In this document: one piece after another, positions 28,771 through 42,384 of the stretch
How positions within the stretch are numbered: position 1 is the first letter of the stretch
Layout: each line of letters begins with the position of its first letter
The notes under the pieces: model-generated
What the model saw: the letters and a program-made list of their open reading frames with translations, nothing else
Databases searched by the model: none
Told to the model about the DNA's origin: nothing
Program-made: the position numbers and the translations under genes
Source of the DNA: Bacteroidota bacterium
GTDB taxonomy: Bacteria > Bacteroidota > Bacteroidia > B-17B0 > Aurantibacillaceae
DNA length: 42,384 bases
Assembly: GCA_013697245.1 (NCBI GenBank)
Contig: JACCXH010000024.1
Span: 1-42,384, forward strand
Direction: 5' to 3'

Positions 28771-29304
28771 TTAAAATAAAGCTTTCGTATTAAAAAATAT
28801 AATATTACTGCGAAGCTTGTTAGTATCCTGATTATTATTGATCTCCGATATCCTTATCTTTTCTGTTTTGTCAGGAAGAAAGTTTCCTGCTGTATCAAAT
28901 TTAAGAATGTTGTTTTTACGTTTTGCAAAATAATACTTTTGCCCACTGGCAGTTTCGCTTTGAAGTATCCTGAATTTTTCTTCCGGAAATCTTTGACTAT
29001 AATATTTATTAATTGATATTGGATATTCTTTATAATCCAATTCACTTTCTTTTCTTATAAGGTTTCCATCTTTATCATAAACAATAACGTGTTTAAGCTT
29101 ATTTTTATCCATATAACTTGCTTCGTAATTTACCCCATCCGATCTCCAACTTGGTTGTACGTCCGGGTATTCGCAGGAAAATTTAGCAACCAACTTTTTT
29201 GGTCCTTTTGTTATAATAATTTTAGATTCTTTTCTTTCAGTTGTTTGAGCAACAAGTGTATTCATCCCCAACATTATCAGTATTGCTATTGCCACATTTT
29301 TCAT
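28771..29304 (-). CDS. Exported PepSY-like protein
   Basis: A 177-residue exported protein. After a signal peptide (AIAILIMLGMNTLVAQ) it contains one PepSY-like (BLIP-related, DUF2874) unit: FSCEYPDVQPSWRSDGVNYE, YDKDGNLIRKESEL, YPISINKYYSQRFPEEKF and ASGQKYYFAK. These domains are common in the Bacteroidota periplasm and are thought to bind proteins or peptides; no function is shown for this one. It ends 30 bases from the porin stop, converging on it. No promoter box was recognised in the AT-rich region upstream. Confidence 0.75.
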   Translation of the reverse strand: MKNVAIAILIMLGMNTLVAQTTERKESKIIITKGPKKLVAKFSCEYPDVQPSWRSDGVNYEASYMDKNKLKHVIVYDKDGNLIRKESELDYKEYPISINKYYSQRFPEEKFRILQSETASGQKYYFAKRKNNILKFDTAGNFLPDKTEKIRISEINNNQDTNKLRSNIIFFNTKALF

Positions 29305-29420
29305 TTTTTATTCTTTTAAGTTCTCTTATATATATGTCCAATATTGTACCATACTTAAATTAAGATGAAATTATAGTGTTTATAATGCCTGCAGGGCTAA
29401 AGAAAAATAAATGTTAAGCT

Positions 29421-29448
29421 CAGCTTGTGGAAATATAAGGTCAAGCTG
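29421..29448 (-). terminator. Weak inverted repeat downstream of the M28 peptidase gene
   Basis: CAGCTTG (29421-29427) pairs with CAAGCTG (29442-29448), a 7-bp stem with a 14-base loop, about 20 bases after the stop at 29470. Downstream on the minus strand there is only AGCTTAACATTTATTTTT. It could be a weak terminator; the rest of the 29305-29469 gap shows nothing else. Confidence 0.3.
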
Positions 29449-29469
29449 CGTAAAAATAACACAGAACTA

Positions 29470-30702
29470 TCAGAATGTAACGCTAAGTTTTTTTAATTCG
29501 CCGTTACGCAATATTTCTATTGGGGCCGTATCACCTTTTTTAAGGCTTGACAGGGCTTTCATATAATCCTGTACATTTTTTACTTGAATCTCACCGAGTT
29601 TTTTCACAACATCTCCTTTTAAAATACCTGCTTTATTGGCAGGTTTTCCATCGGTTACACCATCAATGCGCATGCCTTCGCCTTCGTAGGCATAATCAGG
29701 CATTACACCCATGGTTACTTTAAATCCGCCTTTTCCGGTATCAGGGTTTCTTGTTTTACTAAACTTTAATTTTTGGTAATGAAAAGTTTTTTGTATCACC
29801 TGTACAATAAAATTCAACACATTCACTTCACCCTTATAATTTATTTTTTCTGCATCATCACTTGGTTTGTGATAATCACTATGTTGCCCGGTAAAAAAAT
29901 GTAATACGGGAATATCCTTTAAATAAAAAGAAGTTTGATCGCTGGGCCCAATTCCACTACTATCTTTTTTAAGGCTTAAAGTAGTTTTAATAGAATCCAA
30001 AAGCGGCACCCATGTTGGCGATGTGCCAACACCATAGATGAGTATTTTTTTTGTAGAATCGTTCAAACGACCGATCATATCCATATTTATCATGTAATTG
30101 ATCTTGCCTGGTTCAATATTAGGATCATCACACCACTTTTTAGAGCCCAAAAGGCCTAATTCTTCTCCGCTAAAACAAATAAATAAAAAATTAAAGGGCT
30201 CAATCGTTTTATTTTCGGCAAAATAATTAGCTAACGCTATAACACCGGCGGTACCACTCGCATTATCATCAGCGCCATTGTGGATCTTCCCATCAGGATT
30301 GGCATCTAAGCTGTTGTGATCATGACCAAGGCCCAGGTGATCGTAATGTGCCCCAATTACAATCGTATAAGGCGCCTTATTATCTATAAAACCAACCACA
30401 TTATTCGCTTTTTTTTCTTTGATCCCTGCAGTTGATGTATCATGCGGGCTCGGGTTCTTTTTATATGTAAATGGCTTTAAATAGGAATTATTAAAACTAT
30501 TTAATCCCGCATTTTTGAATTTATCAGCAATATAGTTGGCCGCTAGCAGTTCCTCGGGCGAAGAGGTGCCGCGACCTTTTAATTTATCGGAGGCTAAAAA
30601 AGAAATATCTTCTTTTATGTTTTTAACCAAAATCTCCTGGCTTTTAACTACAGGAGAAGATAACAAAAGCACTACTAAACAGCTTACTAAATTAAATTGC
30701 AT
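29470..30702 (-). CDS. Exported M28-family aminopeptidase with C-terminal PDZ domain
   Basis: A 410-residue exported zinc peptidase. Signal peptide 1-21; a catalytic domain with all five metal ligands in place: GAHYDHLG (H119, D121), HNGADDNASG (D145), SGEELGLLGS (E180, E181), MINMDMIGR (D208) and TGQHSDYHKPSDD (final H). A PDZ domain follows from about residue 325 (GVTDGKPANKAGILKGDVVK, VQDYMKALSSLKKGDTAPIE). M28 peptidases of this build release N-terminal amino acids from peptides in the periplasm. A -7 box sits 4 bases before the ATG at 30702. It is transcribed away from the DAB locus and is probably unrelated to it. Confidence 0.92.
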   Translation of the reverse strand: MQFNLVSCLVVLLLSSPVVKSQEILVKNIKEDISFLASDKLKGRGTSSPEELLAANYIADKFKNAGLNSFNNSYLKPFTYKKNPSPHDTSTAGIKEKKANNVVGFIDNKAPYTIVIGAHYDHLGLGHDHNSLDANPDGKIHNGADDNASGTAGVIALANYFAENKTIEPFNFLFICFSGEELGLLGSKKWCDDPNIEPGKINYMINMDMIGRLNDSTKKILIYGVGTSPTWVPLLDSIKTTLSLKKDSSGIGPSDQTSFYLKDIPVLHFFTGQHSDYHKPSDDAEKINYKGEVNVLNFIVQVIQKTFHYQKLKFSKTRNPDTGKGGFKVTMGVMPDYAYEGEGMRIDGVTDGKPANKAGILKGDVVKKLGEIQVKNVQDYMKALSSLKKGDTAPIEILRNGELKKLSVTF

Positions 30703-30706
30703 CAGT

Positions 30707-30714
30707 CAAAATTA
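30707..30714 (-). promoter_or_regulatory. -7 box of the M28 peptidase gene
   Basis: TAATTTTG on the minus strand is an exact TAnnTTTG match, 4 bases (ACTG) from the ATG, predicting a leaderless mRNA. No clear -33 TTG was seen. Confidence 0.5.
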
Positions 30715-30803
30715 ACCATAAAAAATTAAATTCGGCTTTTTGGCTCCAGTTTTGCTAAAACATAAAAAAATGTAAAAAAAAGACCAAAGCTTAAAAATTT
30801 AGC

Positions 30804-30811
30804 TAAATTTG
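30804..30811 (+). promoter_or_regulatory. -7 box ahead of the DAB locus
   Basis: TAAATTTG is an exact TAnnTTTG match. Transcription should begin about 30815, so the TTG at 30809, which is part of the box, cannot be the start of the small membrane protein; TTG 30821 can. This may be the promoter for the whole dab operon. Confidence 0.5.
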
Positions 30812-30820
30812 TTATCAAGT

Positions 30821-31174
30821 TTGAAAAACAGTAAACATACCTTGTGTATTTTTAACCTAATATTTTTTTTAGGTTCGTTTCTATTAATGTCATTTTCGGT
30901 TTTTTCTAATTCCACTAACAACAGCGATGCCTTTCATATTGAACATAAAGTTTCAACACCTGAAAAACACGATGATTCTAATTCCTCTCAAGTTGTTATA
31001 GAAGAAAGAGGCAACGAAACTGAAAGCAATTTTATTTCACCCGCTTTTATTGTTCCGTTCCTGATCTATTTTTATCATTTAGACTCTACTCCAATTCAAT
31101 TTTTCTCTTCAGTTCCTCGTACTGAAAAATTAACCAACCCGATCTGTATTTCCGGTTGTAATTTCCGTATCTGA
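30821..31174 (+). CDS. Small membrane protein upstream of dabA (unknown)
   Basis: From TTG 30821 the product is 117 residues: an N-terminal hydrophobic segment (CIFNLIFFLGSFLLMSFSVF), a polar, His- and Ser-rich stretch (AFHIEHKVSTPEKHDDSNSS), the acidic/basic motif QVVIEERGNETES, a hydrophobic aromatic stretch (SPAFIVPFLIYFYHLDSTPI) and an Arg-containing end. It is oriented with dabA, 93 bases upstream. No family is recognised. A second small protein with a comparable plan (N-terminal membrane segment, an EEER-type motif, a C-terminal hydrophobic part and a basic end) lies between dabB and the SulP gene. A role with the DAB complex is possible but is inferred from position only. Confidence 0.6.
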   Translation: MKNSKHTLCIFNLIFFLGSFLLMSFSVFSNSTNNSDAFHIEHKVSTPEKHDDSNSSQVVIEERGNETESNFISPAFIVPFLIYFYHLDSTPIQFFSSVPRTEKLTNPICISGCNFRI

Positions 31175-31267
31175 TATTTTTTTATTTACCCGATCTAGGG
31201 TGTAGTTGGCTTTTCTATAGTCGACATTTGTTTCGAAAAAACAATTCAATTAATTTTTAATAAAAAA

Positions 31268-33763
31268 ATGAAAACAGAAACTTCTTCATTTGATGAACAT
31301 AAAGTGCTGCACGAACTAAAGCATTACTTACCGGCGCAGGCACCTCTTAAAGATTTTATTCATCACAATACTTTGCATGCTTTTCAGAACTTAAATTTTT
31401 TTAAAGCATTAAACAATGCTCACGAAATATTGGGCTATAACGTTTCTTTATCTTTAGATGAGTACCGCTCTTTATATCAGACTAAAAAAATAAAAGAAAA
31501 CATTCTGGATAAAGTTATTGCTTCACAAAAAGGAGCAAATAACATTAATGAATGGAAAACAAAACTTATCTCTCAAAGATATGATAATTCTAACAATGCG
31601 CGAATAGGGCAGCTTAGGGCTAATTGGAAAAAAGAGTTCAGCATTGATCTTGATCTTTTGATACAACCCATTCTTTTTAGAGTACTTTGCAGTTATCTCG
31701 ACCAGGGAATTTCTATCTGGAATTTTCCTGTTCATGAACTAGGTTTTCTTGCTTCTATAAAGGAAATGGAAAAAAATACTTACACCAGTTTCTTTAAAAC
31801 CGAAAGAGCGAAAAAATTATTATTAAGCGATAAATGCCAGATCGAAGACCTGCTAAAAATAATTGTTGGTGATGAATCTCTTTATGCACAATATATTTTT
31901 GATCAACAATTTTCTCACCAGGGATGGTCGGGTATGGTTTCAACGATCGAAGATCAACCTGAAACTTTACTGGATTCAAAAAAAATAAGTATTAAAGAAT
32001 TAGTGACGTTTGAACTTTTATTAGAGATAGACGCGCTGGATAAAAAATTTGGAAAGATCTGGTCGCCTTTAGGCCAAAGAATTGAGCGTAGACCAATTGA
32101 TCTTTTTGCTGAAGTTCCTGAAACAGAATTGCGCGATGTATTTACCATTTGGCAATTGGCATACGAATGGAGTTATTATGATGAAGTACTAGCCGGCCTG
32201 CAACAAGGTATTATAGAGAAAAAAGAAATTCCATCAAAAAGTTTCCAGATCATGCTTTGTATTGATGATCGCGAAACATCCCTTAGGGATTATATGGAAA
32301 AACTGGATCCGAATTGCGAAACATTTGCAACTCCCGGTTTTTTTGGCGTTGAATTTTATTTTCAACCTGAACACGGTAAATCTTATACAAAACAATGTCC
32401 GGCTCCGGTAACTCCTAAATTCCTGATAAAAGAAATTGAAATTACAGAAGGAAGAAAAAAAGATGTGCATTTTGCAAAACATACACATGGCTTGTTCAGG
32501 GGCTTGATCATATCACCAACGCTTGGCTTTTGGTCGGCTTTTAGATTATTCATCAGTCTTTTTAAACCGTCTATTAGTCCGGCCACTGCCTTATCCTTTA
32601 GCCATATGGATAAATTATCGAAATTGACTATCGAACACAAAGAGGGTGTAGCCAATGAAAATGGTTTACAAGTAGGGTTTTCATATGAAGAAATGGCGAC
32701 AAGAGTGGAAGCTCTATTAATGAGCATAGGCATGGTAAAAAACTTTGGGCCGTTAGTATATGTTGTAGGTCACGGTTCCAGCAGTGTAAATAATCCACAT
32801 TACGCAGCTTACAATTGTGGTGCCTGTTGCGGCAGACCGGGATCGGTTAATGCCAGGGTCGTTTCTTTTATGGCCAATCATCCTAAAGTTAGAGAGATAT
32901 TAAGATCTAAAGGATTAAACATTCCTGCTGAAACCCAGTTTATGGGAGGATTGCATGATACAACGCGTGATGAGATCGTTTTTTATGATTTGACTTTTCT
33001 TTCAGCTGAAAATGCAAAATTACATACTGAAAATTTAAAGACCATTAATAAAAGCCTTGATCTTAACTCTAAAGAAAGATCAAGAAGATTTGAATCGATT
33101 AATTCAAAACTGGATGCGGCAAAAATCCACAAGAAGATCCTTAGTCGCTCCGTTTCATTATTTGAACCAAGGCCCGAACTTAATCATGCCACCAATACCT
33201 TATGTATTGTAGGAGGCAGAGAAATGACAAAAAAATTATTTTTAGATCGCAGGGCATTTTGCAATTCATATGACTATAAGATCGATCCGGAAGGAAAGAT
33301 CCTGGTTAATATTATGAAACCATTAGGGCCTGTTTGTGGTGGAATTAATCTTGAATATTTTTTCTCACGTGTAGATAATCACAAACTAGGAGCAGGTACA
33401 AAATTACCACATAACGTAATGGGTTTATTTGGTGTAGCAAATGGTATTGATGGCGATCTTCGTCCGGGCTTACCAAGCCAGATGATAGAAGTACATGACC
33501 CAATAAGATTACTCATTATTGTTGAACATTTTCCTGAAGTTGTTTTAAAAACAATTAAATCGGTAGATGCGATGTACGAATGGTTCATTAACGAATGGGT
33601 TAATTTGGTTGTAATGAATCCGGAGACTAAGAAATTGTCGGTATTTAAAAATGGTGATTTTACAAATTACGAACCGTTGGCAAAGAAATTAAATACGGCA
33701 ACAGACATGACCTCTATTCTAGAAAATAATTTAGATAATATTCCGGTTTACTTAATTAAATAA
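31268..33763 (+). CDS. dabA: DabA, DUF2309 (UPF0753) carbonic-anhydrase-like subunit of the DAB inorganic-carbon pump
   Basis: An 831-residue protein, normal for DabA. It begins with the family's PAQAPLKDFIHHNTLHAFQN (22-41). The zinc-site residues known for Halothiobacillus neapolitanus DabA have counterparts here: C331 and D333 in MLCIDDRETS, H502 in VVGHGSSS and C517 in YNCGACCGRP, with the same 15-residue H-to-C spacing. With DabB it forms an energy-coupled complex that turns CO2 into bicarbonate in the cytoplasm. Gene order here is dabA then dabB, 8 bases apart. The ATG at 31268 is preceded by a run of A. Members in heterotrophs probably supply bicarbonate for carboxylations; this use is inferred. 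Confidence 0.95.
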   Translation: MKTETSSFDEHKVLHELKHYLPAQAPLKDFIHHNTLHAFQNLNFFKALNNAHEILGYNVSLSLDEYRSLYQTKKIKENILDKVIASQKGANNINEWKTKLISQRYDNSNNARIGQLRANWKKEFSIDLDLLIQPILFRVLCSYLDQGISIWNFPVHELGFLASIKEMEKNTYTSFFKTERAKKLLLSDKCQIEDLLKIIVGDESLYAQYIFDQQFSHQGWSGMVSTIEDQPETLLDSKKISIKELVTFELLLEIDALDKKFGKIWSPLGQRIERRPIDLFAEVPETELRDVFTIWQLAYEWSYYDEVLAGLQQGIIEKKEIPSKSFQIMLCIDDRETSLRDYMEKLDPNCETFATPGFFGVEFYFQPEHGKSYTKQCPAPVTPKFLIKEIEITEGRKKDVHFAKHTHGLFRGLIISPTLGFWSAFRLFISLFKPSISPATALSFSHMDKLSKLTIEHKEGVANENGLQVGFSYEEMATRVEALLMSIGMVKNFGPLVYVVGHGSSSVNNPHYAAYNCGACCGRPGSVNARVVSFMANHPKVREILRSKGLNIPAETQFMGGLHDTTRDEIVFYDLTFLSAENAKLHTENLKTINKSLDLNSKERSRRFESINSKLDAAKIHKKILSRSVSLFEPRPELNHATNTLCIVGGREMTKKLFLDRRAFCNSYDYKIDPEGKILVNIMKPLGPVCGGINLEYFFSRVDNHKLGAGTKLPHNVMGLFGVANGIDGDLRPGLPSQMIEVHDPIRLLIIVEHFPEVVLKTIKSVDAMYEWFINEWVNLVVMNPETKKLSVFKNGDFTNYEPLAKKLNTATDMTSILENNLDNIPVYLIK

Positions 33764-33771
33764 TATTAATA

Positions 33772-35646
33772 ATGACAACACAATTGCTCTTCCATATTTT
33801 TATATTGATCCCTGTATTTGGATTTATACTTAGTATATTCATTCCGGGTAAAAATGAAAAATTAATTTCAGGTATTGCCTTTTCAATTGTAGGTGTACAC
33901 TTTATAGCATTTCTTGCCTATATGGTATACTGGTTAATGAATGGCCACCCAACTTTAAACTTTAAGGATATCGTTCTGTTTAAAACAACAGGCTATGAGT
34001 TTTACATCGATTTCTTATTTGATAAAATAACTGCCGTATACTTTTTTGTAGGCTCGTTACTTACTTTTATGGTAACCATCTACAGTAAAGCCTACTTGCA
34101 TCGCGAAAACGGGTACAAACGTTTTTTTAATACCTTGTTATTCTTTTATCTTGGTTACAACATTATTATTTTTGCCGGCAACCTCGAAACTCTTTTTATG
34201 GGTTGGGAAATACTTGGTATTTGCTCTTTTTTATTAATTGCATTTTACCGCGAACGCTATTTGCCTGTAAAGAATGCTTTAAAGGTTTTTACCGTTTATC
34301 GTATTGGTGATGTGGGCCTAATACTTGCTATGTGGATGAGCCATCATTTGTGGCACCAGAACATTACATTTGCGCAATTACAAAACGATGAATTAATTCA
34401 TGCGCAACTGGAAACGCATAGTTTAGTTGGTGTATTTATTTCACTTATGATCTTAATTACCGCAGCTGCGAAATCGGCGCAATTACCATTTTCGTCCTGG
34501 TTACCAAGAGCCATGGAAGGACCAACGCCATCCAGTGCTATATTTTACGGATCACTTTCGGTACACATTGGCGTTTTTCTTTTATTAAGAACTTATGAGT
34601 TGTGGGAAAACCAGGTATCTGTAAGAATAATTATTGGTGTACTTGGTTTAGCCACAAGTATTGTTACTTCTTTAATTGCTCGTGTACAATCATCGGTTAA
34701 AAGCCAGATCGCCTACTCCTCTGCCTCGCAGATAGGTTTGATCTTTATTGAGGTGGCTTTAGGCTTTGAGAACCTTGCCTTAATTCACTTTGCCGGAAAC
34801 GCATTCTTAAGAACTTATCAATTATTAGTTTCGCCATCTGTAGTAAGTTATTTAATACGTGAGCAATTTTACAATTATGTACCGCGTAAAGCTACTTTCG
34901 AAGATTCGTTCCCGAAAAAGATAGAGTACTCTATTTATTTAATGAGCATAAAAGAATTTAATCTTGATTCATTTATGTACACTGTTTTATGGAACTCATT
35001 AAAAAGATTAGGCAAAAAATTAAACTTCTTAACCTTAAATAATTTATTTATCTTTTTTGTTCCGGTTTATTTAATTGGTTTAGTTTGTCTTTATACCAAA
35101 GCGCATATCCCTGATGATATACATGAATACCTTCCTGCATTTTTTGCATTGATAGGTTTAATGATGGTATTAAAATCTTTTGCTGAAAGAAAGAATGTTA
35201 TCTTAAGCTGGACATTGATCATCATGAATCACTTTTGGGTAGCACTAGCGGTTTCCTTCAACGAAAATTTTACTTACGATCAAATACATCTTTACTTAAG
35301 CGGAATTGTTGTTGCAGGAATTGTTGGTTATGTTTGTTTAAATAAATTAAGGTCTATTGAAAAAAATATTGACCTTAATCAATTTTATGGACACGTATAC
35401 GAGCATCCAAAACTGGCATTTGTTTTTCTTTTGGCTTGTTTAGGTTTAACGGGCTTCCCTATCTCTCCTACCTTTGTTGGCGAAGACCTTATTTACAGCC
35501 ATATTCACGAAGATCAATATGTGTTGGCTTTATTTACAACCTTAAGTTTTATAATTGATGGTTTGGCATTGGTTAGAATTTATGCACGTGTATTTTTAGG
35601 ACCACACATAAAAACATACCACGAATCGCCATACAGGTCATCATAA
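33772..35646 (+). CDS. dabB: DabB, NuoL-like membrane subunit of the DAB complex
   Basis: A 624-residue polytopic protein of the proton-pumping antiporter (NuoL/MrpA) family. The conserved charged pair needed for ion movement is present: E146 in LFMGWEILGICSFL and K234 in AAAKSAQLPFSSWLPRAMEG. After PTPSSAIF the sequence reads YGSLSVHIGVFLLLRTYE, as in DabB rather than in complex I subunits, and the long C-terminal lateral helix of NuoL is lacking. It should couple a cation gradient, most likely H+, to CO2 hydration by DabA. No other complex I genes are near, which supports the DAB assignment. The gene follows dabA by 8 bases. Confidence 0.94.
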   Translation: MTTQLLFHIFILIPVFGFILSIFIPGKNEKLISGIAFSIVGVHFIAFLAYMVYWLMNGHPTLNFKDIVLFKTTGYEFYIDFLFDKITAVYFFVGSLLTFMVTIYSKAYLHRENGYKRFFNTLLFFYLGYNIIIFAGNLETLFMGWEILGICSFLLIAFYRERYLPVKNALKVFTVYRIGDVGLILAMWMSHHLWHQNITFAQLQNDELIHAQLETHSLVGVFISLMILITAAAKSAQLPFSSWLPRAMEGPTPSSAIFYGSLSVHIGVFLLLRTYELWENQVSVRIIIGVLGLATSIVTSLIARVQSSVKSQIAYSSASQIGLIFIEVALGFENLALIHFAGNAFLRTYQLLVSPSVVSYLIREQFYNYVPRKATFEDSFPKKIEYSIYLMSIKEFNLDSFMYTVLWNSLKRLGKKLNFLTLNNLFIFFVPVYLIGLVCLYTKAHIPDDIHEYLPAFFALIGLMMVLKSFAERKNVILSWTLIIMNHFWVALAVSFNENFTYDQIHLYLSGIVVAGIVGYVCLNKLRSIEKNIDLNQFYGHVYEHPKLAFVFLLACLGLTGFPISPTFVGEDLIYSHIHEDQYVLALFTTLSFIIDGLALVRIYARVFLGPHIKTYHESPYRSS

Positions 35647-35669
35647 ATTAAATTTTTATAAGGAAAAAA

Positions 35670-36020
35670 ATGAAATTGAAAAAACTATATATGTCTTTTA
35701 CTTGCTACCTCATACTGGTGGCTTTTATAAGCGTAATTAGTATCGATATCTCTTCGCGTTCGTACCTATCCCTCAAAAAAACACAAGTTGCTTCCAACCA
35801 ATGTAATTTAACTTCTGACCTTAATTTGGTATTTGAAGAAGAAAGAGATACTACAGACCCGCTTTTTTTTACAGTTTTATCACAGCATGTTTTTTCTTTA
35901 CAGACGGTAGTGCCCAAAGTATCAGAGCAACTCGGGGCTTTTAATACCAATGTAAAAAACAAAATAAACAATTTATTTAAAGTACCGTTATTCATATATT
36001 ATAGAGCCATCAAAATATAG
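35670..36020 (+). CDS. Small membrane protein between dabB and sulP (unknown)
   Basis: A 116-residue protein starting at ATG 35670 with a purine-rich AAGGAAAA just upstream, one of the few Shine-Dalgarno-like sites here. An N-terminal membrane segment (FTCYLILVAFISVISIDI) is followed by a polar part, the motif LVFEEERDTTDPLFF, a moderately hydrophobic stretch (LSQHVFSLQTVVPKV) and a basic, aromatic C-terminus (LFKVPLFIYYRAIKI). The gene begins 23 bases after dabB and ends 57 bases before the SulP gene. No family is recognised. Its plan resembles that of the small protein upstream of dabA, but the similarity is too weak by eye to claim homology. Confidence 0.65.
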   Translation: MKLKKLYMSFTCYLILVAFISVISIDISSRSYLSLKKTQVASNQCNLTSDLNLVFEEERDTTDPLFFTVLSQHVFSLQTVVPKVSEQLGAFNTNVKNKINNLFKVPLFIYYRAIKI

Positions 36021-36077
36021 ACCCCACTTTTTTCGAATTAAAAAATAAATAATAACTATTAATTAAAAAATAAAAAT

Positions 36078-37724
36078 ATGTCATCAAAAATTCAAATTCC
36101 GGAAGACGGGTTCAAAGGAATGAAACAAAATTTAGCAGCAGACCTAACGGCCGGCTTCATGGTATTTTTACTGGCCTTACCTTTAAGCTTAGGTATTGCC
36201 AAAGCAAGTGGTTTTCCAAATCCTATCTTTGGTGTTGTTACTGCCATTGTTGGTGGTATCATCGTTTCTTTTTTAGCAGGTTCCCGTTTAACTATTAAAG
36301 GCCCTGCTGCAGGATTAATCGTTATCGTTTCAGGTTCGGTTGAAGCTTTTGGTGGCGGAGAAAATGGCTGGCACCTTGCGTTAGGTTGTATAGTTGTTGC
36401 AGCAATAATACAGGTAATGTTTGGGTTATTAAAAATAGGAAGCCTGGCTGATTTCTTTCCGGGAGCAGCTATTCATGGAATGTTAGCCGCTATTGGATTA
36501 ATTATTATTATTAAACAAATACCTTTTCTTTTAGGTGCAAACCCTGCATTAACTAAACATGCCAGCGAAACTGATCCTACAAAAATGGTATCATATGAAA
36601 CACTTCCATTAGCAGGGCAAATTCCTAAGTTTATCGCCGGTGCCAATGCACATGTTGCTATTATAGGGCTTATTTGTTTGGCAATTATGTTCTTTTTTAT
36701 GTTCGTTAAAAATCCAATAATCAAAAAAATTCCCGGACCATTAGTTGTATTAATATTTGCAATTCCTATGGGCATGTTTTTTATGTTAGGAACAGATGAG
36801 GTCGTTGGCAAGTTTGCATTAGTAAAAGTTGGACATATCACCGAGATATTAAGTAAACAATTTATTAATGTTGATTTTTCAGGAATTTCCTCTCATACAG
36901 GTGTCTTTATACAATATGTTGTGTTATATGCTTTAATTGGTAGTTTAGAATCCTTATTAACCGTAAAAGCAATTGATGGTTTAGATCCATATCACCGTAA
37001 ATCAAATGCCAACAAAGACCTAACGGCTTTGGGTATTGGTAATGCAGTAAGCGGTATAATTGGTGGTTTGCCAATGATCTCGGAAGTTGTTCGTAGTTCT
37101 GCCAATGTTGGCTTTGGCGCGAAAACACGTTGGGCTAATTTATTTCATGGTGTGTTTTTATTAGTTGCTGTTATTGTTGCTGTACCTGTCATCGAAATGA
37201 TTCCTCAAGCTGCTTTAGCTGCTTTATTAATTTTTGCAGGTTATCGTCTTGCCAGTCCTAAAGAATTTAAACACATGTTGCATGTTGGTACCGATCAATT
37301 CATCATTTTTATTGTTACAATATTTATGACGCTTGCTACCGATCTTTTAATTGGTGTAGGAAGTGGAATTTTATTAGAGCTTTTATTAAACATGTTTAGC
37401 GGTGCTAAACTTGGTAATTTTTTCAAATCGAGATCAACTGTGGAAGAAAAAGGAGATAATCAGGTTATTGTACGTGTAACCGGCGACGCCTTATTTTCTA
37501 ATTACCTAGGATTGAAAAAAGTTATTTATGCGCTTCCAAAAGCAAAAAATGTGGTGATCGATCTTTCGGCATGTAAAGTTGTTGATCATACTACATTGCA
37601 TGCACTTCATGGTTTTCAGCACGATTATCAACTCGAAGGTGGAACCGCAGTTTTATCTGATCTAAGGGATCACAAGGCTAAAGGTAAAGCGGGTACATCT
37701 ACAAAAGTATTAACAAGGGTATAA
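36078..37724 (+). CDS. SulP-family anion (probably bicarbonate) transporter with STAS domain
   Basis: A 548-residue transporter. The SulP core shows MKQNLAADLTAGFMVFLLAL with PLSLGIAKASGFPNPIFGVV, FLAGSRLTIKGPAAGLIVIV, AAIHGMLAAIGLIIIIKQIP, SLLTVKAIDGLDPYHRKSNA with KDLTALGIGNAVSGIIGGLP, and a C-terminal STAS domain from about residue 450 (DLSACKVVDHTTLHALHGFQ). SulP proteins move sulfate, bicarbonate or other anions. Position in a DAB operon favours bicarbonate as substrate, similar to SulP members joined to carbonic anhydrases elsewhere; this is inferred. The family's interplay with STAS suggests regulation. It is followed by a structured intergenic region and a porin gene. Confidence 0.9.
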   Translation: MSSKIQIPEDGFKGMKQNLAADLTAGFMVFLLALPLSLGIAKASGFPNPIFGVVTAIVGGIIVSFLAGSRLTIKGPAAGLIVIVSGSVEAFGGGENGWHLALGCIVVAAIIQVMFGLLKIGSLADFFPGAAIHGMLAAIGLIIIIKQIPFLLGANPALTKHASETDPTKMVSYETLPLAGQIPKFIAGANAHVAIIGLICLAIMFFFMFVKNPIIKKIPGPLVVLIFAIPMGMFFMLGTDEVVGKFALVKVGHITEILSKQFINVDFSGISSHTGVFIQYVVLYALIGSLESLLTVKAIDGLDPYHRKSNANKDLTALGIGNAVSGIIGGLPMISEVVRSSANVGFGAKTRWANLFHGVFLLVAVIVAVPVIEMIPQAALAALLIFAGYRLASPKEFKHMLHVGTDQFIIFIVTIFMTLATDLLIGVGSGILLELLLNMFSGAKLGNFFKSRSTVEEKGDNQVIVRVTGDALFSNYLGLKKVIYALPKAKNVVIDLSACKVVDHTTLHALHGFQHDYQLEGGTAVLSDLRDHKAKGKAGTSTKVLTRV

Positions 37725-37741
37725 CCTTAAAGATTCTTGCT

Positions 37742-37804
37742 GGGCCTCAGTAGATGAGTTGTGTTTCCATCTAAAGTTTTTCACAACTATATTTACTGAG
37801 GCTT
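37742..37804 (+). terminator. Nested hairpin between sulP and the porin gene
   Basis: Outer stem GCCTCAGTA/TACTGAGGC (37744-37752 with 37794-37802), extended by two G-T pairs; inner stem AGTTGTG/CACAACT (37757-37763 with 37782-37788); only TTTT follows. It could be a partial terminator or an mRNA-processing element that sets the ratio of sulP to porin, or the end of the dab unit. Strong outer stem, weak T-tail. Confidence 0.5.
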
Positions 37805-37841
37805 TTGCAAGACCATATATTTATTTTAAAAATTTCATAAA

Positions 37842-39203
37842 ATGAAAAAAATATTTTTTTTAATGCTTAGTGTATTTTCCATCAATGCATTTGCACAATT
37901 ACCTTTACCAAGCGTTCGTTTTAAAGACGGATTAAAGATCTATTTAAACGACGACAGTACACGTTATATTAAAGGCACCGGTTTAGCACAGATCTGGTTC
38001 AGATACAACGATAACAACCCGGGCTCAACAATTTTCGGTACGCCAAAAAAAGAGACCTTTGATGTTGGTTTACGTCGTGTTCGTTATCAAACTTTAGCAC
38101 AGGTTACCAGCAGAGTCTTCTTTTACGCGCAATTTGGTATCAATAGTCAAAATAGTTTATCGGCAAGAAAATCACAACTTTTCTTTCATGATGTTACAGC
38201 GGAATACAATGTGCATAAAAATTATTTAGTATTAGGCGGTGGGTTGAGCGGCTGGAATGGAACAGCAAGGTATACCTCTTCATCGGTTGCAAGCATTCTT
38301 TGCATGGATCTTCCAATTGTTGAAGAAACCACGAACGATGTTTCTGACCAGTTTGTAAGAAGATTGGGTGTTTATGCAAAAGGTAAAATAAGTGGTTTTG
38401 ATTATCGCTTATCTGTTGCAAATCCTTTTCCAGTTCAAACAACCACAACAATTCCAGGCGGTGGTGCTGTTGCGGCATTACCTGCAACAGGAACCAATAC
38501 AGCTTATTATTCTCCTAAAGCACCTGAGTTAAATTATCAGGGATATTTTATGTGGCAATTTCTTGAAAAAGAAAGCAACCAGGTTCCTTATATGACAGGT
38601 TCTTATTTAGGAAAAAAACGTGTGTTCAACATTGGTTCCGGTTTCCAATACCAAAAAAATGCCATGTGGTATAGAAACGCCACATTAGATACCGTTTCAA
38701 CACCATTAACACAATTTGGTGCTGATCTTTTTCTGGATTATTATTTAAATAAAGAAAAACAAACTGCCATAACTGCTTACGCTGCATTTTTAAACTATGA
38801 TTTTGGCCCAAATTATTTACGTAATGCGGCCATTATGAATACAGCGAATGGTACAAGTGGTCCGGCAACAAGTTTTAATGGTTCCGGCAATGGATTACCA
38901 TTGGTTGGAACAGGCCAGGTAATTTACACGCAAGCTGCTTATTTATTTAAAAAAGACCTCCTAAAAAAACAAGGTACTTTGCAACCCTATGCCTCTGCTA
39001 TTTATGCAAAATACCAAAAATTAAAAGATCCTATGTTGGTGTATAATGTTGGTGTGAACTGGATCATGAGCGGGCAAAACTCAAAGATCTCTTTAGATTA
39101 TCAAAGCAGGCCGATATTTAATACCGATGCCAATGGCGATCTGAGAGAGACGAAATCAGCGCGCAGGGGTATGGTGGTATTACAGTACCAGGTAGCATTT
39201 TAA
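37842..39203 (+). CDS. Outer-membrane porin of the DAB/SulP locus
   Basis: A 453-residue protein with a signal peptide (KKIFFLMLSVFSINAFAQ) and a barrel-type body of alternating strands: FGTPKKETFDVGLRRVRYQT, VFFYAQFGINSQNSLSARKS, NYLVLGGGLSGWNGTARYTS, ending in GMVVLQYQVAF with a terminal aromatic. It resembles phosphate-selective OprP/O-type porins of Bacteroidota in the DVGLRRVRYQ segment. Placed after sulP with a structured spacer, it might let bicarbonate or another anion through the outer membrane for the carbon pump. Whether it belongs to the same transcript depends on the hairpin upstream. The substrate is inferred. Confidence 0.8.
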   Translation: MKKIFFLMLSVFSINAFAQLPLPSVRFKDGLKIYLNDDSTRYIKGTGLAQIWFRYNDNNPGSTIFGTPKKETFDVGLRRVRYQTLAQVTSRVFFYAQFGINSQNSLSARKSQLFFHDVTAEYNVHKNYLVLGGGLSGWNGTARYTSSSVASILCMDLPIVEETTNDVSDQFVRRLGVYAKGKISGFDYRLSVANPFPVQTTTTIPGGGAVAALPATGTNTAYYSPKAPELNYQGYFMWQFLEKESNQVPYMTGSYLGKKRVFNIGSGFQYQKNAMWYRNATLDTVSTPLTQFGADLFLDYYLNKEKQTAITAYAAFLNYDFGPNYLRNAAIMNTANGTSGPATSFNGSGNGLPLVGTGQVIYTQAAYLFKKDLLKKQGTLQPYASAIYAKYQKLKDPMLVYNVGVNWIMSGQNSKISLDYQSRPIFNTDANGDLRETKSARRGMVVLQYQVAF

Positions 39204-39241
39204 ATATTTAAATAAAAATAATTTTCTTGTATTTAATCTTT

Positions 39242-39249
39242 TAACTTTA
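39242..39249 (+). promoter_or_regulatory. -7-like box upstream of the UbiA-like gene
   Basis: TAACTTTA is one base from TAnnTTTG. Transcription would begin near 39253. An out-of-frame ATG at 39262 opens an 11-codon reading frame that overlaps the TTG start at 39272. Confidence 0.35.
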
Positions 39250-39271
39250 TGGGATAATTAAATGATAAAAT

Positions 39272-40132
39272 TTGAAATTGTTTTCATTTATAATTAATAC
39301 AAATATATTCATTTCTATTGCAGCTGTTTTTTTAACGATAGAGACACAAGTGCAATTAGGAATGAAACCACAGCTCCATCCCTATTTATTTATTATTTTT
39401 TTTGCAACCATTTTTGAATACAATGTGCACAGGTTAATAACTATTATAACAAATCCAAAAGCTTTGACCGACAATAAACATAACTGGGTTAATAAAAACT
39501 TAAAAGCCTTTTATTTTTTAGTGGGTTTTTCGGTTATTGGTTTTGTTATAGCCACAGCTATGGCAAAAAAAATTGTATTAATAACCCTGTTGCCAATAGG
39601 CCTTGTTACCTTATTTTATTCTTTACCGATCTTTAAAACAAAAAAGATCCTTTTTAGGTTAAGAGAGATCCCTGCTTTAAAGATCTTTTTAATTTCTATG
39701 GTATGGTCGGCCACAACAATTTTATTGCCCATTATACAATCCGGCAACTCTTACAACAACTGGCACATTATTACCATGTTGATCGAGCGATTTATTTTTG
39801 TTTTTGCCATTACCATACCTTTTGATATAAGAGATATGAAGGCTGATGAAACTGCGGGCTTACAAACCTTACCTCTTATTATTGGAGAAAAAAAAGCAAT
39901 GATCCTTGCAAACGTTTATATTTTGCTTTTTTTAATACTTTGCATCTTTCATTATTATAACACAAGCCTTAGCTTTACTTTACCCGCATTTATTATTTCA
40001 GCGCTTACAACATTTTTGTTTATCAACAATAAAAAATTGCAGGCAACAAAGTATTACCACTATTTTATCTTAGATGGTACCATGTTATTGCAGGGCCTTC
40101 TTGTTTGTATTTGTTATTATTTGTTTAACTGA
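39272..40132 (+). CDS. UbiA-superfamily prenyltransferase homologue
   Basis: A 286-residue membrane protein with eight or nine membrane segments, starting at TTG 39272 (a stop lies just upstream in frame). The second Asp-rich motif of UbiA is intact (FDIRDMKADETAGLQTLP: D185, D188, D192) and so is the YSLP motif (116-119). The first motif, N-D-x-x-D in active enzymes, is reduced to FEYNVHRLIT (N51 only), so metal-diphosphate binding in that site may be lost. Many Bacteroidota encode such a divergent subfamily of unknown substrate. It is followed 7 bases later by a porin gene and is probably co-transcribed with it; the reason for that pairing is not evident. Confidence 0.8.
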   Translation: MKLFSFIINTNIFISIAAVFLTIETQVQLGMKPQLHPYLFIIFFATIFEYNVHRLITIITNPKALTDNKHNWVNKNLKAFYFLVGFSVIGFVIATAMAKKIVLITLLPIGLVTLFYSLPIFKTKKILFRLREIPALKIFLISMVWSATTILLPIIQSGNSYNNWHIITMLIERFIFVFAITIPFDIRDMKADETAGLQTLPLIIGEKKAMILANVYILLFLILCIFHYYNTSLSFTLPAFIISALTTFLFINNKKLQATKYYHYFILDGTMLLQGLLVCICYYLFN

Positions 40133-40139
40133 TTTATAA

Positions 40140-41519
40140 ATGTTTCGATCTTTAAAAATATTTATCCAAAAAATAAAATTGAAACACAATAAATTGTTTC
40201 CTCTATTATTAACGGCCAACATGGCCTTTGCGCAAGACTCCCTGCAAAAAAAAATAAAATGGTTTACCTTACATGCTCAGGAAACGACTGTTACCCAATT
40301 TAGGCCAAAATTTAATGCACTTTATACCGGTGCGCACAGTCAAACACCCGAAGAGCAATGGGCCACTACTATAACAAGCACTATTTTTGGCGGCTTAAAA
40401 TTATGGCCACAGGCGCAAATATTTATTAATCCTGAAATTGCCGGCGGCTCCGGATTATCTTCTGCGTTTGGGATTGCCGCTTTTACAAATGGCGAAGCAT
40501 TTAGGGTTGGAAGCCCCGCTCCTACTATCTATTTAGGCCGCGGTTTTTTTAGACAACTCATTCCACTTTCAAAAGAAAGAGAATGGCAGGATGATGGCGA
40601 AAATAAAATAGCACAATACATCCCTAAAAAATATATTTCGTTTACTATCGGAAAAATTTCTATTGCCGATTATTTTGACGACAATTCTTTTTCGCATAAC
40701 CCGCGTAATCAATTTTTAAGCTGGGGCTTAATGAGCAATGGTGCCTGGGACTATCCAGCCAACACAAGAGGTTATACACCAAGTATAATTCTTGAATACA
40801 TTAGCCGAAAATTTGAAGTGCGTTACGGCATAAGCATGATGCCTGTAACTGCCAACGGAAATATAATGGATAAGAACGTGAATAAAGCCAACGCCCATTC
40901 TTTTGAAGTAAAATATAAATACACGGTAAAAAATAAACCCGGCAAAATAAGTGCATTAGCCTTTTATAATACGGCTTTTATGGGCAGTTATACCGATGCA
41001 AACATTATTAGCACAGCCGACTCTGCTAACCCAAATTTTTACCGGAACGATTATTCAATTGTAGCAAGCAGGCAATACGGAAGAAGTAAATATGGTTTTG
41101 GATTGAACATTGAGCAGACAATTACAGATAATGTTGGTGTTTTTGCGAGAGCCTCTTATAACGATGGTAAAAGCGAAACCTGGTGTTTTACCGAAATTGA
41201 CCGAGCATTTAGCATTGGCACTTCTATTAAAGGAAATAACTGGAAAAGAGAAAACGATATTATTGGTATTGCTTATTGTTTATCAGGACTATCGGCTGAA
41301 CATGCTAACTATTTAGCAAAAGGCGGACTTGGTTTTATTATTGGTGATGGGCGTTTGAACTACGGTAACGAACATTTATTTGAATCGTTCTACAGCGCCT
41401 CGTTATTGAATTGCAGGTTCACGCCATCTTTAGTTTATCAGTTCGTTTTAAACCCGGCCTATAATAAAGACAGAGGCCCAATAAATATTTTTTCGCTTAG
41501 ATTACATTTTAGCATTTAA
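40140..41519 (+). CDS. OprB-family (carbohydrate-type) porin
   Basis: A 459-residue outer-membrane protein. A signal peptide ends at NMAFAQ (about residue 31). The OprB pattern is clear: FRPKFNALYTGAHSQTPEEQ, LYGG-like GGLKLWPQAQIFINPEIAGG, YLGRGFFRQLI, and the C-terminal strand NPAYNKDRGPINIFSLRLHF. Porins of this family take up sugars in other phyla, and in Bacteroidota they are often single genes with no sugar cluster nearby, as here. It starts 7 bases after the UbiA-like gene. Two further porins (27.4 and 37.8 kb) are not of this family, so the window encodes three unlike porins. Confidence 0.85.
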   Translation: MFRSLKIFIQKIKLKHNKLFPLLLTANMAFAQDSLQKKIKWFTLHAQETTVTQFRPKFNALYTGAHSQTPEEQWATTITSTIFGGLKLWPQAQIFINPEIAGGSGLSSAFGIAAFTNGEAFRVGSPAPTIYLGRGFFRQLIPLSKEREWQDDGENKIAQYIPKKYISFTIGKISIADYFDDNSFSHNPRNQFLSWGLMSNGAWDYPANTRGYTPSIILEYISRKFEVRYGISMMPVTANGNIMDKNVNKANAHSFEVKYKYTVKNKPGKISALAFYNTAFMGSYTDANIISTADSANPNFYRNDYSIVASRQYGRSKYGFGLNIEQTITDNVGVFARASYNDGKSETWCFTEIDRAFSIGTSIKGNNWKRENDIIGIAYCLSGLSAEHANYLAKGGLGFIIGDGRLNYGNEHLFESFYSASLLNCRFTPSLVYQFVLNPAYNKDRGPINIFSLRLHFSI

Positions 41520-41543
41520 TAATTTCATCTAAAAAACAACATC

Positions 41544-42275
41544 ATGAAAAAAACAAAAGTCGCAACCAGTATTGGAGTAGCTTGCCTTGCACTGCTATTT
41601 CAACAATGTGCCATTATTCGCCCCGGCGAGATCGGCATTAAACAAACTCTTGGAAAAATAAGAGGGAATGAATTAAAACAAGGTGTAAATTTTTACAATC
41701 CTTTTTCAAGTAAGATCATCCGGATCAATGTGAGAATCGTTGAAAGTTTTAACACACTTCCTTTACCAACAAAAGAAGGTTTAAGTGTAAATACAGAGAT
41801 CAGTCTCTTATATCACGTAAAGGCCGAATCGGCAAACGATGTGTATTTAAAGCTTGGGCCTAATTATGAAGAAGTAATGGTGTTAAGTAATTTTAGAGCA
41901 ACAGCCCGCGAAATTAGCGCACGCTATTATGCAAAAGAGCTTTACGCTACCGAAAGAAATAAAGTAGAAACAGCAATAGCCGAAGAACTTGGCCTACATA
42001 TTTCTAAATACGGTTTTGTGGTAGATGCTGTTCTGCTAAAGGACATCATTCTTCCACCACAAATGGTACAGGCCATTCAGGAAAAAGTAAATGCTGAGCA
42101 ATCTGCCTTAAAAATGGAATTTGTGATCGATCTCCAAAAAAAGGAAGCAGAAAGAAGAATTATTGAGGCTGAAGCAATTAAAAAGGCCCAAAATATAATT
42201 AATGAGTCCTTGTCTGACAAATTGTTACAGTATAACCATATAGAAATGTTAAAAAGCCTTGTAATATCAACTTGA
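41544..42275 (+). CDS. SPFH/band-7 (prohibitin-like) lipoprotein
   Basis: A 243-residue protein. The N-terminus looks like a signal with a near-lipobox (GVACLALLFQQC), so it may be a lipoprotein; the L-F-Q-Q-C box is not ideal. A band-7 domain covers about 25-195 (IIRPGEIGIKQTLGKIRGNE, GLSVNTEISLLYHVKAESAN, ATAREISARYYAKELYATER), followed by the coiled coil EAERRIIEAEAIKKAQNIIN and ending LLQYNHIEMLKSLVIST. Prohibitin-like proteins form large ring assemblies on membranes. From memory, relatives go on for 15-20 more residues after this last motif, so the C-terminus is somewhat short. It stands 24 bases after the porin gene in the same direction. Confidence 0.88.
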   Translation: MKKTKVATSIGVACLALLFQQCAIIRPGEIGIKQTLGKIRGNELKQGVNFYNPFSSKIIRINVRIVESFNTLPLPTKEGLSVNTEISLLYHVKAESANDVYLKLGPNYEEVMVLSNFRATAREISARYYAKELYATERNKVETAIAEELGLHISKYGFVVDAVLLKDIILPPQMVQAIQEKVNAEQSALKMEFVIDLQKKEAERRIIEAEAIKKAQNIINESLSDKLLQYNHIEMLKSLVIST

Positions 42276-42279
42276 TTTA

Positions 42280-42384
42280 TTAAATAGTCCAAATTTCTTC
42301 TACAAAAGCGTATTGATAGTTACAAGTATTAATAATTTGTATCTCAGTAATTGCCTTTATAGTTTTTTCAATATAGTCACTGAT
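42280..42384 (-). CDS. 3' end of a minus-strand gene (runs off right edge)
   Basis: The minus-strand frame is open from the window edge to a TAA at 42282-42280: 34 residues, including ISDYIEKTIKAITEIQIINT and ending AFVEEIWTI. The composition is that of a folded protein and it converges on the SPFH gene 4 bases away, as other gene pairs do here. It is too short to place in a family. It could also be a chance open frame. Confidence 0.45.
   Translation of the reverse strand: MSDYIEKTIKAITEIQIINTCNYQYAFVEEIWTI

Follow-up and report, generated by a model that had tools for sequence, protein, structure and literature searches.

Pumps of the DAB/MpsAB kind, in which DabA and DabB together convert CO2 to bicarbonate, are present in non-autotrophs as well, and homologues have been noted in Bacteroidetes (PMC6689103). 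Leaders that act through arrest of their own nascent chain, such as SecM, MifM, VemP, ApcA, ApdA and ApdP, have been screened for as open reading frames (ORFs) of 80-200 residues lying directly upstream of a gene, with an N-terminal membrane signal and a conserved C-terminus more than 40 residues further on (PMC7897499), and in upstream ORFs of Bacteroidota ending in NAP-stop or NSP-stop, the stop codon occupies the A site at arrest (PMC10987492). In copper handling, CutF, an exported nascent sensor, acts by opening a stem-loop that covers the following gene (PMC9973294), and an upstream ORF of the CruR type controls Rho termination (PMC9426467). Here we analyse a window of 42,384 nucleotides (nt), one whole contig (JACCXH010000024.1; G000:C40 in our numbering) from a 4.44 Mb, 100% complete genome of a Bacteroidota bacterium of the Aurantibacillaceae, in which the genes of a DAB pump and of a SulP transporter are each preceded by a small ORF. 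From their sequences, we consider it somewhat probable that these small ORFs are translational leaders of the nascent-chain-arrest kind, bearing a new tail.

On the + strand, the genes run in the order small ORF, dabA, dabB, small ORF, sulP and porin, and the cluster without its first ORF spans 31268-39203. The first-pass annotation of the window listed these genes correctly and was slightly off in starting them at 30804, the first ORF running from 30809 to 31174. As in DAB/MpsAB systems elsewhere, the two subunit genes are adjacent, and the zinc and active-site residues are kept; the window differs in adding a SulP transporter, small leader ORFs and, as is often the case among relatives, a porin, and the genome in adding three beta-carbonic anhydrases. 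In the available portions of the DAB literature, including PMC13144422, PMC10219603, PMC8552792, PMC10880623, PMC6689103, PMC9080137 and PMC12628692, we found no description of a DAB-SulP-porin-leader arrangement in Bacteroidota, nor of the recurring DAB-SulP module of this phylum, with porin or carbonic anhydrase, that is described here.

Small reading frames ahead of dabA and sulP

The longest frame of ORF 1 opens at 30809 (121 residues), and a TTG at 30821 is its probable start, preferred because several relatives' ORFs begin there. Read from this codon, ORF 1 (30821..31174, + strand) comprises 117 residues, with a helix, an acidic middle and the C-terminal motif NPICISGCNFRI, and closes with UGA. 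ORF 2 (35670..36020, + strand; 116 residues), which is leader-like too and lies ahead of sulP, has the tail VPLFIYYRAIKI and a UAG stop. Both belong to one large class, found ahead of dabA and sulP in many genera, whose common build is an N-terminal hydrophobic stretch and an acidic patch in the middle.

The neighbourhoods compared were those of the window and of loci L032-L151 (121 in all, the short L001-L031 being excluded), of which 113 remained once 8 duplicates had been dropped; many are cut by contig ends, and loci were picked by likeness to the window DabA, so that shares among them are not phylum-wide rates. An ORF of the class build stands directly before DabA in 49 of 106 loci and before SulP in 43 of 86, and before DabB in 0 of 108, the porin in 0 of 44, carbonic anhydrase in 1 of 29 and other genes of at least 200 residues in 5 of 371. 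Where the gene upstream of DabA can be seen (104 cases), DabA comes directly after such an ORF in 47 and after a same-strand carbonic anhydrase, porin or SulP in 37; for SulP, the share that directly follows an ORF of this build is 44/92.

These frames encode protein under purifying selection. The ratio of nonsynonymous to synonymous substitution (dN/dS) was obtained for 22 of the 24 ORF pairs listed, and lies at 0.12-0.37 in 21 of them and at 0.68 in one (for ORF 1 itself, 0.15 against L048 and 0.16 against L114), which rules out a noncoding alternative. AlphaFold gives ORF 1 a confident helix at residues 4-32 followed by disorder (mean pLDDT 57.9, from an 18-row alignment), and the predicted helix, together with the hydropathy threshold, suggests an N-terminal membrane segment. 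Relatives are 21-57% identical to ORF 1 (L048, at 57%, has a DabA 78% identical) and share the conserved acidic patch FEENENE. In 52 sequences the last 11 residues, at a fixed distance from the stop, follow the pattern P-[IL]-[YF]-[IL]-x-x-[RC]-x-[FLI]-[RLK]-I, the set having been chosen for a C-terminal I, L or V, a length of at least 90 residues, no PP near the end and a place outside the Algoriphagus-type cluster, which inflates conservation at position -1. Conservation reaches 2.7-3.2 bits at positions -11, -9, -5, -2 and -1, stays at or below 0.98 bits at every position from -12 to -40, and averages 0.66 bits (highest 1.50) from -41 to -84. In ORF 1 the motif begins near residue 107 of 117, the helix ending at 32. 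Algoriphagus-type leaders end mostly in LYDLFHSWK-x-HLS or near variants, and many ORFs ahead of SulPs of a second type (type B, below) end in PP or PPP.

Set beside SecM, MifM, VemP, ApcA, ApdA and ApdP, the two window ORFs have the size, position, N-terminal segment, tail and spacing by which arrest leaders have been recognised (PMC7897499), but the tail of their class is without RAPP or a terminal proline, and the genes downstream encode carbon transporters and RND pumps rather than sec or yidC products. The published motifs that we compared (RAPP-like, LPPP, KYxIW, NSP/NAP-stop and DGMK-stop) are absent from both ORFs, which end in TNPICISGCNFRI and KVPLFIYYRAIKI and have neither a RAPP-like nor a PP motif among their last 15 residues. 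Because the published criteria fit and the published motifs are absent, we class the small ORFs as a probable new variety of arrest leader. A further likeness is to the copper-responsive upstream ORFs CutF and CruR (DUF2946 and relatives), each a small exported ORF at the head of a transport or homeostasis operon, with a stall-like C-terminal motif and control of the following gene through intergenic RNA (PMC9973294; PMC9426467), features that the window ORFs would share; a survey of PP-ending small proteins in the CutF paper takes in Bacteroidota (PMC9973294). Unlike these, the window ORFs have an acidic middle and no PP tail, and nothing confident was found for them in Pfam or NCBIfam. In the excerpts seen of the leader literature, including PMC7897499, PMC12992588, PMC10987492, PMC9973294 and PMC9426467, we found none on leaders ahead of carbon transporters.

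Profile searches of 36 and 22 genomes, counted as full-length matches with weak partial matches inside long frames left out, placed the window-type leader mostly ahead of dabA or sulP, and the other full-length matches examined lie ahead of RND efflux operons. In one genome lacking DabA, a leader precedes a carbonic anhydrase by 730 nt, with an RND operon following, and the host genome itself has two leaders ahead of RND operons (contigs 18 and 22). That the same build heads RND operons weakens a role for the small ORFs as subunits specific to inorganic-carbon transport, and they look like translational leaders rather than transport parts, a point missed in the first-pass annotation. The RND-associated examples at L242:1241-7505 (G000:C18) and L245-L248 end in ...YLAISVLRI/V or similar, use UGA and lie 136-194 nt before MFP-RND genes; one profile match, G024:C80, is weak. 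On the host's contig 22, L190:240-9898 (G000:C22) carries in succession a leader, a czcCBA-type RND operon, one gene, a leader ending IPPPKI, a type-B SulP and a beta-carbonic anhydrase, and resembles a second inorganic-carbon site.

Stop codons and RNA between the putative leader and dabA

Leaders before DabA close with UGA in 30 of 50 cases and those before SulP in 10 of 17, compared with 178 of 1030 genes of at least 150 residues. The second leader, after dabB, has UAG in 6 of 10, and UAA closes 16 of 23 PP-ending leaders, a share not above that of other genes. The interval between leader and dabA is 83-106 nt long in 33 of 51 loci. In the window, it is predicted to fold (31175..31270, + strand) into a closing stem around three hairpins (31187-31202, 31205-31225 and 31228-31244), the stem of 12 pairs joining 31175-31186 with 31259-31270, that is, from the base after the UGA to the ATG of dabA.

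In a first folding comparison, z stood at -2.21 for leader-DabA gaps, lower than the -1.55 of 213 gene pairs of other kinds (p 0.0006); for the two SulP groups, p was 0.08 and 0.16. The mean number of closing pairs is 11.2 in window-type leaders, 4.5 in shuffles and 4.2 in control gene pairs, and at least 6 are found in 16 of 19 such leaders, compared with 48 of 147 controls. In 17 Algoriphagus-type loci, RNAalifold recovers the closing stem unprompted; 87.3% of its alignment cells are paired, against 82.6 +/- 1.2 in shuffles (0/500 as high) and 16.7-37.3% when the stem is slid. Cells changed on both sides number 5, against 1.5 in shuffles (1/500 reach this), and the covariation score is reached by 5/500.

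On these grounds, we propose that the leader would be translated at the membrane by way of its N-terminal helix, and that its 11-residue tail, to judge by its conservation, may slow or arrest the ribosome at or beside the UGA stop. An arrest there would disturb the predicted mRNA structure that ties the end of the leader to the start of dabA, a structure for which some covariation is seen in another clade, and dabAB output would thus be set by a signal acting on the nascent chain, for which inorganic carbon, pH, ions and insertion state are candidates. Control of sulP by the second leader would work in the same way.

A number of points tell against this proposal. The window itself offers no RNA structure in support of the second leader, its gap to sulP being unstructured (z +0.50), and SulP leaders ending in PP show no excess of closing stem (2.3 pairs, 3.6 in shuffles). 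The window dabA gap, at -20.9 kcal/mol, has a z of only -1.93, with 10 of 200 shuffles as good, and 20% of 50 shuffles match its number of closing pairs; of the 19 window-type loci, no more than 8 reach the 10% level when taken singly. Evidence from covariation comes from the Algoriphagus-type clade, the window-type alignment being poor and not folded, and there too the consensus energy is -0.09 kcal/mol, the 2 pairs changed on both sides are reached by 177/500 shuffles, and the 5 pair types fall short of a shuffled 6.2 and are reached by 499/500. With a ribosome simulated at the stop, the dabA start becomes little more accessible (0.56 to 0.62 unpaired, p 0.06 with 80 controls), and the start of SulP goes from 0.53 to 0.63 (p 0.007). 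Stop-codon counts ignore relatedness and set apart 13 small ORFs which failed the build test, Algoriphagus-type leaders use UAA and UGA mixed, and the leaders of RND and carbonic-anhydrase genes have UGA in 6 of 12 and at least 5 closing pairs in 4 of 11 folded gaps. Finally, the hydropathy and acidic thresholds of the build were fixed after the sequences had been seen, and the full build test failed in 57 of 106 DabA loci.

Weighing both sides, a fuller version, in which a nascent-chain sensor with a stop-proximal motif and mostly UGA stops reads bicarbonate or CO2, pH or insertion state, gates dabAB and sulP, and in related form gates RND pumps, is offered tentatively, as possible rather than probable. 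If true, it would amount to a post-transcriptional switch for CO2 and bicarbonate uptake in heterotrophs, and inorganic carbon would join protein export and copper as a field of nascent-chain regulation; leaders of the class with other middles would constitute a widespread regulatory device for transporters, and the new tail motif would be directly testable in vitro.

As to other RNA elements, a scan for intrinsic terminators over 30600-39400 returned three terminator-like sites, shuffles averaging 6.1, one of which is the second hairpin of the leader gap (31205-31225), and an Rfam scan of 29300-42384 returned two matches, both far under their gathering scores.

The DAB-SulP cluster and its porin

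By its sequence matches, the locus is a predicted inorganic-carbon uptake cluster of Bacteroidota, made up of a DabAB CO2-to-bicarbonate pump, a SulP anion transporter and often a porin. The dabA gene (31268..33763, + strand) encodes a PF10070 protein (E 9.8e-207, 689 bits against a cut-off of 25), and its NuoL-like partner dabB (33772..35646, + strand) one that matches Proton_antipo_M (E 1.3e-40) and the solved DabB2 (9rd0_B, E 2.1e-28). Residues C331, D333, R335, H502 and C517 of DabA align with C351, D353, R355, H524 and C539 of DabA2 (9rd0_A), in which C351, H524 and C539 are zinc ligands and D353-R355 an Asp-Arg dyad (PMC13144422); the ORFs and this alignment bear out an earlier reading of the 8-base spacing of the two genes and of the retention of C331, D333, H502 and C517. 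In the named collection, the DabA sequences closest to that of the window come from uncultured Bacteroidetes genomes (78% and 76% identity), and those of Runella and Rhodocytophaga are 65-66% identical. In Leptospirillum, a DUF2309-NuoL operon that also encodes a hypothetical protein and a dehydratase was interpreted in terms of chromate tolerance (PMC9080137).

The sulP gene (36078..37724, + strand) encodes a SulP-STAS anion transporter that shares with the SulP/BicA family its Sulfate_transp (E 3.9e-60) and STAS (E 3.5e-6) domains, but falls far under the NCBIfam BicA cut-off (NF050096, 115.6 against 880 bits). A second SulP gene of the host lies on another contig than the window, together with a carbonic anhydrase. 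A whole-genome search found no RuBisCO large subunit (PF00016), in agreement with the earlier statement that the gene is missing, other carbon-fixation pathways and carboxysome genes being outside that search. Because the genome is without RuBisCO, the likely use of the pump is to supply bicarbonate for heterotrophic carboxylations.

DAB and SulP form a recurring gene group in Bacteroidota. Counting the host, 54 of 150 genomes carry DabA, and of these 54, 44 have a SulP within 5 kb of it and 32 the porin within 10 kb, where by our own estimate, at about 2.1 SulP genes per genome, chance would place SulP within 5 kb in less than 1% of genomes. A comparison of neighbourhoods had been named beforehand as the test that could refute the grouping, which holds in these counts. 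Among the 113 non-duplicate loci, SulP of either type occurs in 87, porin in 44 and carbonic anhydrase in 24. The commonest layouts are dabA-dabB-SulP-porin (22), dabA-dabB alone in view (17) and dabA-dabB-SulP (13), followed by SulP-carbonic anhydrase-dabA-dabB (11) and SulP-porin-dabA-dabB (10). SulPs of type A (at least 41% identical to that of the window) have the porin in 41 of 62 loci, and those of type B (below 41%) a carbonic anhydrase in 20 of 30; that in other Bacteroidota a beta-carbonic anhydrase sits between SulP and DabA had been missed in the first-pass annotation. The order SulP, carbonic anhydrase, dabA, dabB is also seen in L079 and L082, labelled Methylotenera/Methylophilaceae, with DabA 54-55% identical, which may reflect transfer between phyla or misbinned contigs.

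The porin (37842..39203, + strand), an outer-membrane family member separable from DAB and SulP, has no Pfam family and misses the cut-off for the ExtI porin (NF040900, 49.9 against 150 bits); structure prediction makes it a beta barrel (mean pLDDT 77.4), with OprP as its best PDB match (TM-score 0.53 by query length). Its family is found in 60 of 150 genomes, of which 42 carry DabA. Among 20 stretches surrounding porins that lie away from DAB loci (18 come from genomes lacking DabA), SulP adjoins the porin in 3, and the remaining 17 show no SulP beside it within the stretch; the more distant members compared (35-60% identity) may form another subfamily. The porin has no fixed link to carbon uptake, because its family occurs without DAB and SulP, including at L198 (G007:C2), where a DabA-less genome has M28, porin and UbiA genes in the order of the window, minus dabAB, sulP and both small ORFs. 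From this layout, the carbon genes may be gained and lost as one unit. At L202 (G031:C1) and L200 (G057:C63), the porin has a leader-type ORF ahead of it, and the stretches examined contain neither dabAB nor sulP. In the window, a very stable hairpin (37735..37812, + strand; -38 kcal/mol, z -5.98, 0/200 shuffles as stable) lies in the interval between sulP and porin, and as a possible terminator or processing site it may split the expression of the two genes.

These results bear on the earlier proposal that the genes make up a complete uptake set on one transcript, with DAB moving CO2, SulP moving bicarbonate and the porin serving as dedicated channel, which is compatible with the small ORFs being leaders. 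The grouping is conserved in several orders, and the closest solved relative of the window SulP is 6ki1, which we take to be BicA. The BicA cut-off is missed, however, the hairpin separates sulP from the porin, and porins located away from SulP and DAB weaken the idea of a dedicated carbon channel, so that of the earlier interpretation the DAB-SulP grouping is supported and the dedicated channel is not. In another bacterium, one of two tested SulPs did not sustain growth at low CO2 (PMC12628692). The complete set as proposed is, in our view, somewhat doubtful.

Other readings of the small frames, and flanking genes

If the small ORFs were not leaders, they might make stable accessory proteins of the membrane or periplasm, which could be a third part of DAB or SulP, assist assembly or bind ions, and the RNA pairing would be incidental. 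Purifying selection and the conserved FEENENE patch, which a leader would not need for its tail alone, speak for such proteins, as does the modest nature of the RNA evidence. However, no fold is predicted past the single helix (from a shallow alignment), the sequences diverge to 21-57% identity with the first ORF, and the same build stands before unrelated RND pumps. Moreover, the solved DAB2 entry 9rd0 was matched as DabA2 and DabB2, and the strongest conservation is in a tail fixed to the stop codon; we judge stable proteins of this kind to be unlikely. Ordinary translational coupling, in which any ribosome completing the leader would open an RNA lid joining it to dabA, would require neither sensing nor arrest, and the closing stems of window-type loci, like the paired stem in Algoriphagus-type loci, are consistent with it. 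It leaves unexplained the membrane helix, the acidic patch and the conserved tail, and by itself appears quite unlikely.

C-termini may also serve as ligands of PDZ domains, and a role for the small ORFs as exported sensors, whose C-terminus (hydrophobic-x-hydrophobic, FRI-COOH) would be read by a DegS/DegP-type PDZ protease as an envelope stress signal, fits a tail conserved through its last residue and an M28 peptidase with a PDZ domain divergent beside the window leader, with a homologue at four other leaders, but it accounts neither for the position before transporters, the UGA enrichment and the RNA stem nor for PP-ending leaders that are without the tail, and is highly improbable.

We thus retain arrest leaders as the preferred reading of the small ORFs. 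Beyond them, the divergent gene for the M28 peptidase with its PDZ domain (29470-30702) adjoins leader 1, and a homologue is likewise the leader's neighbour at four more of the 113 loci. Past the porin, at 39272-42275, lie genes for a UbiA-type prenyltransferase, an OprB-type porin and an SPFH/Band7 protein, of which OprB and UbiA also recur around some DAB loci of relatives.

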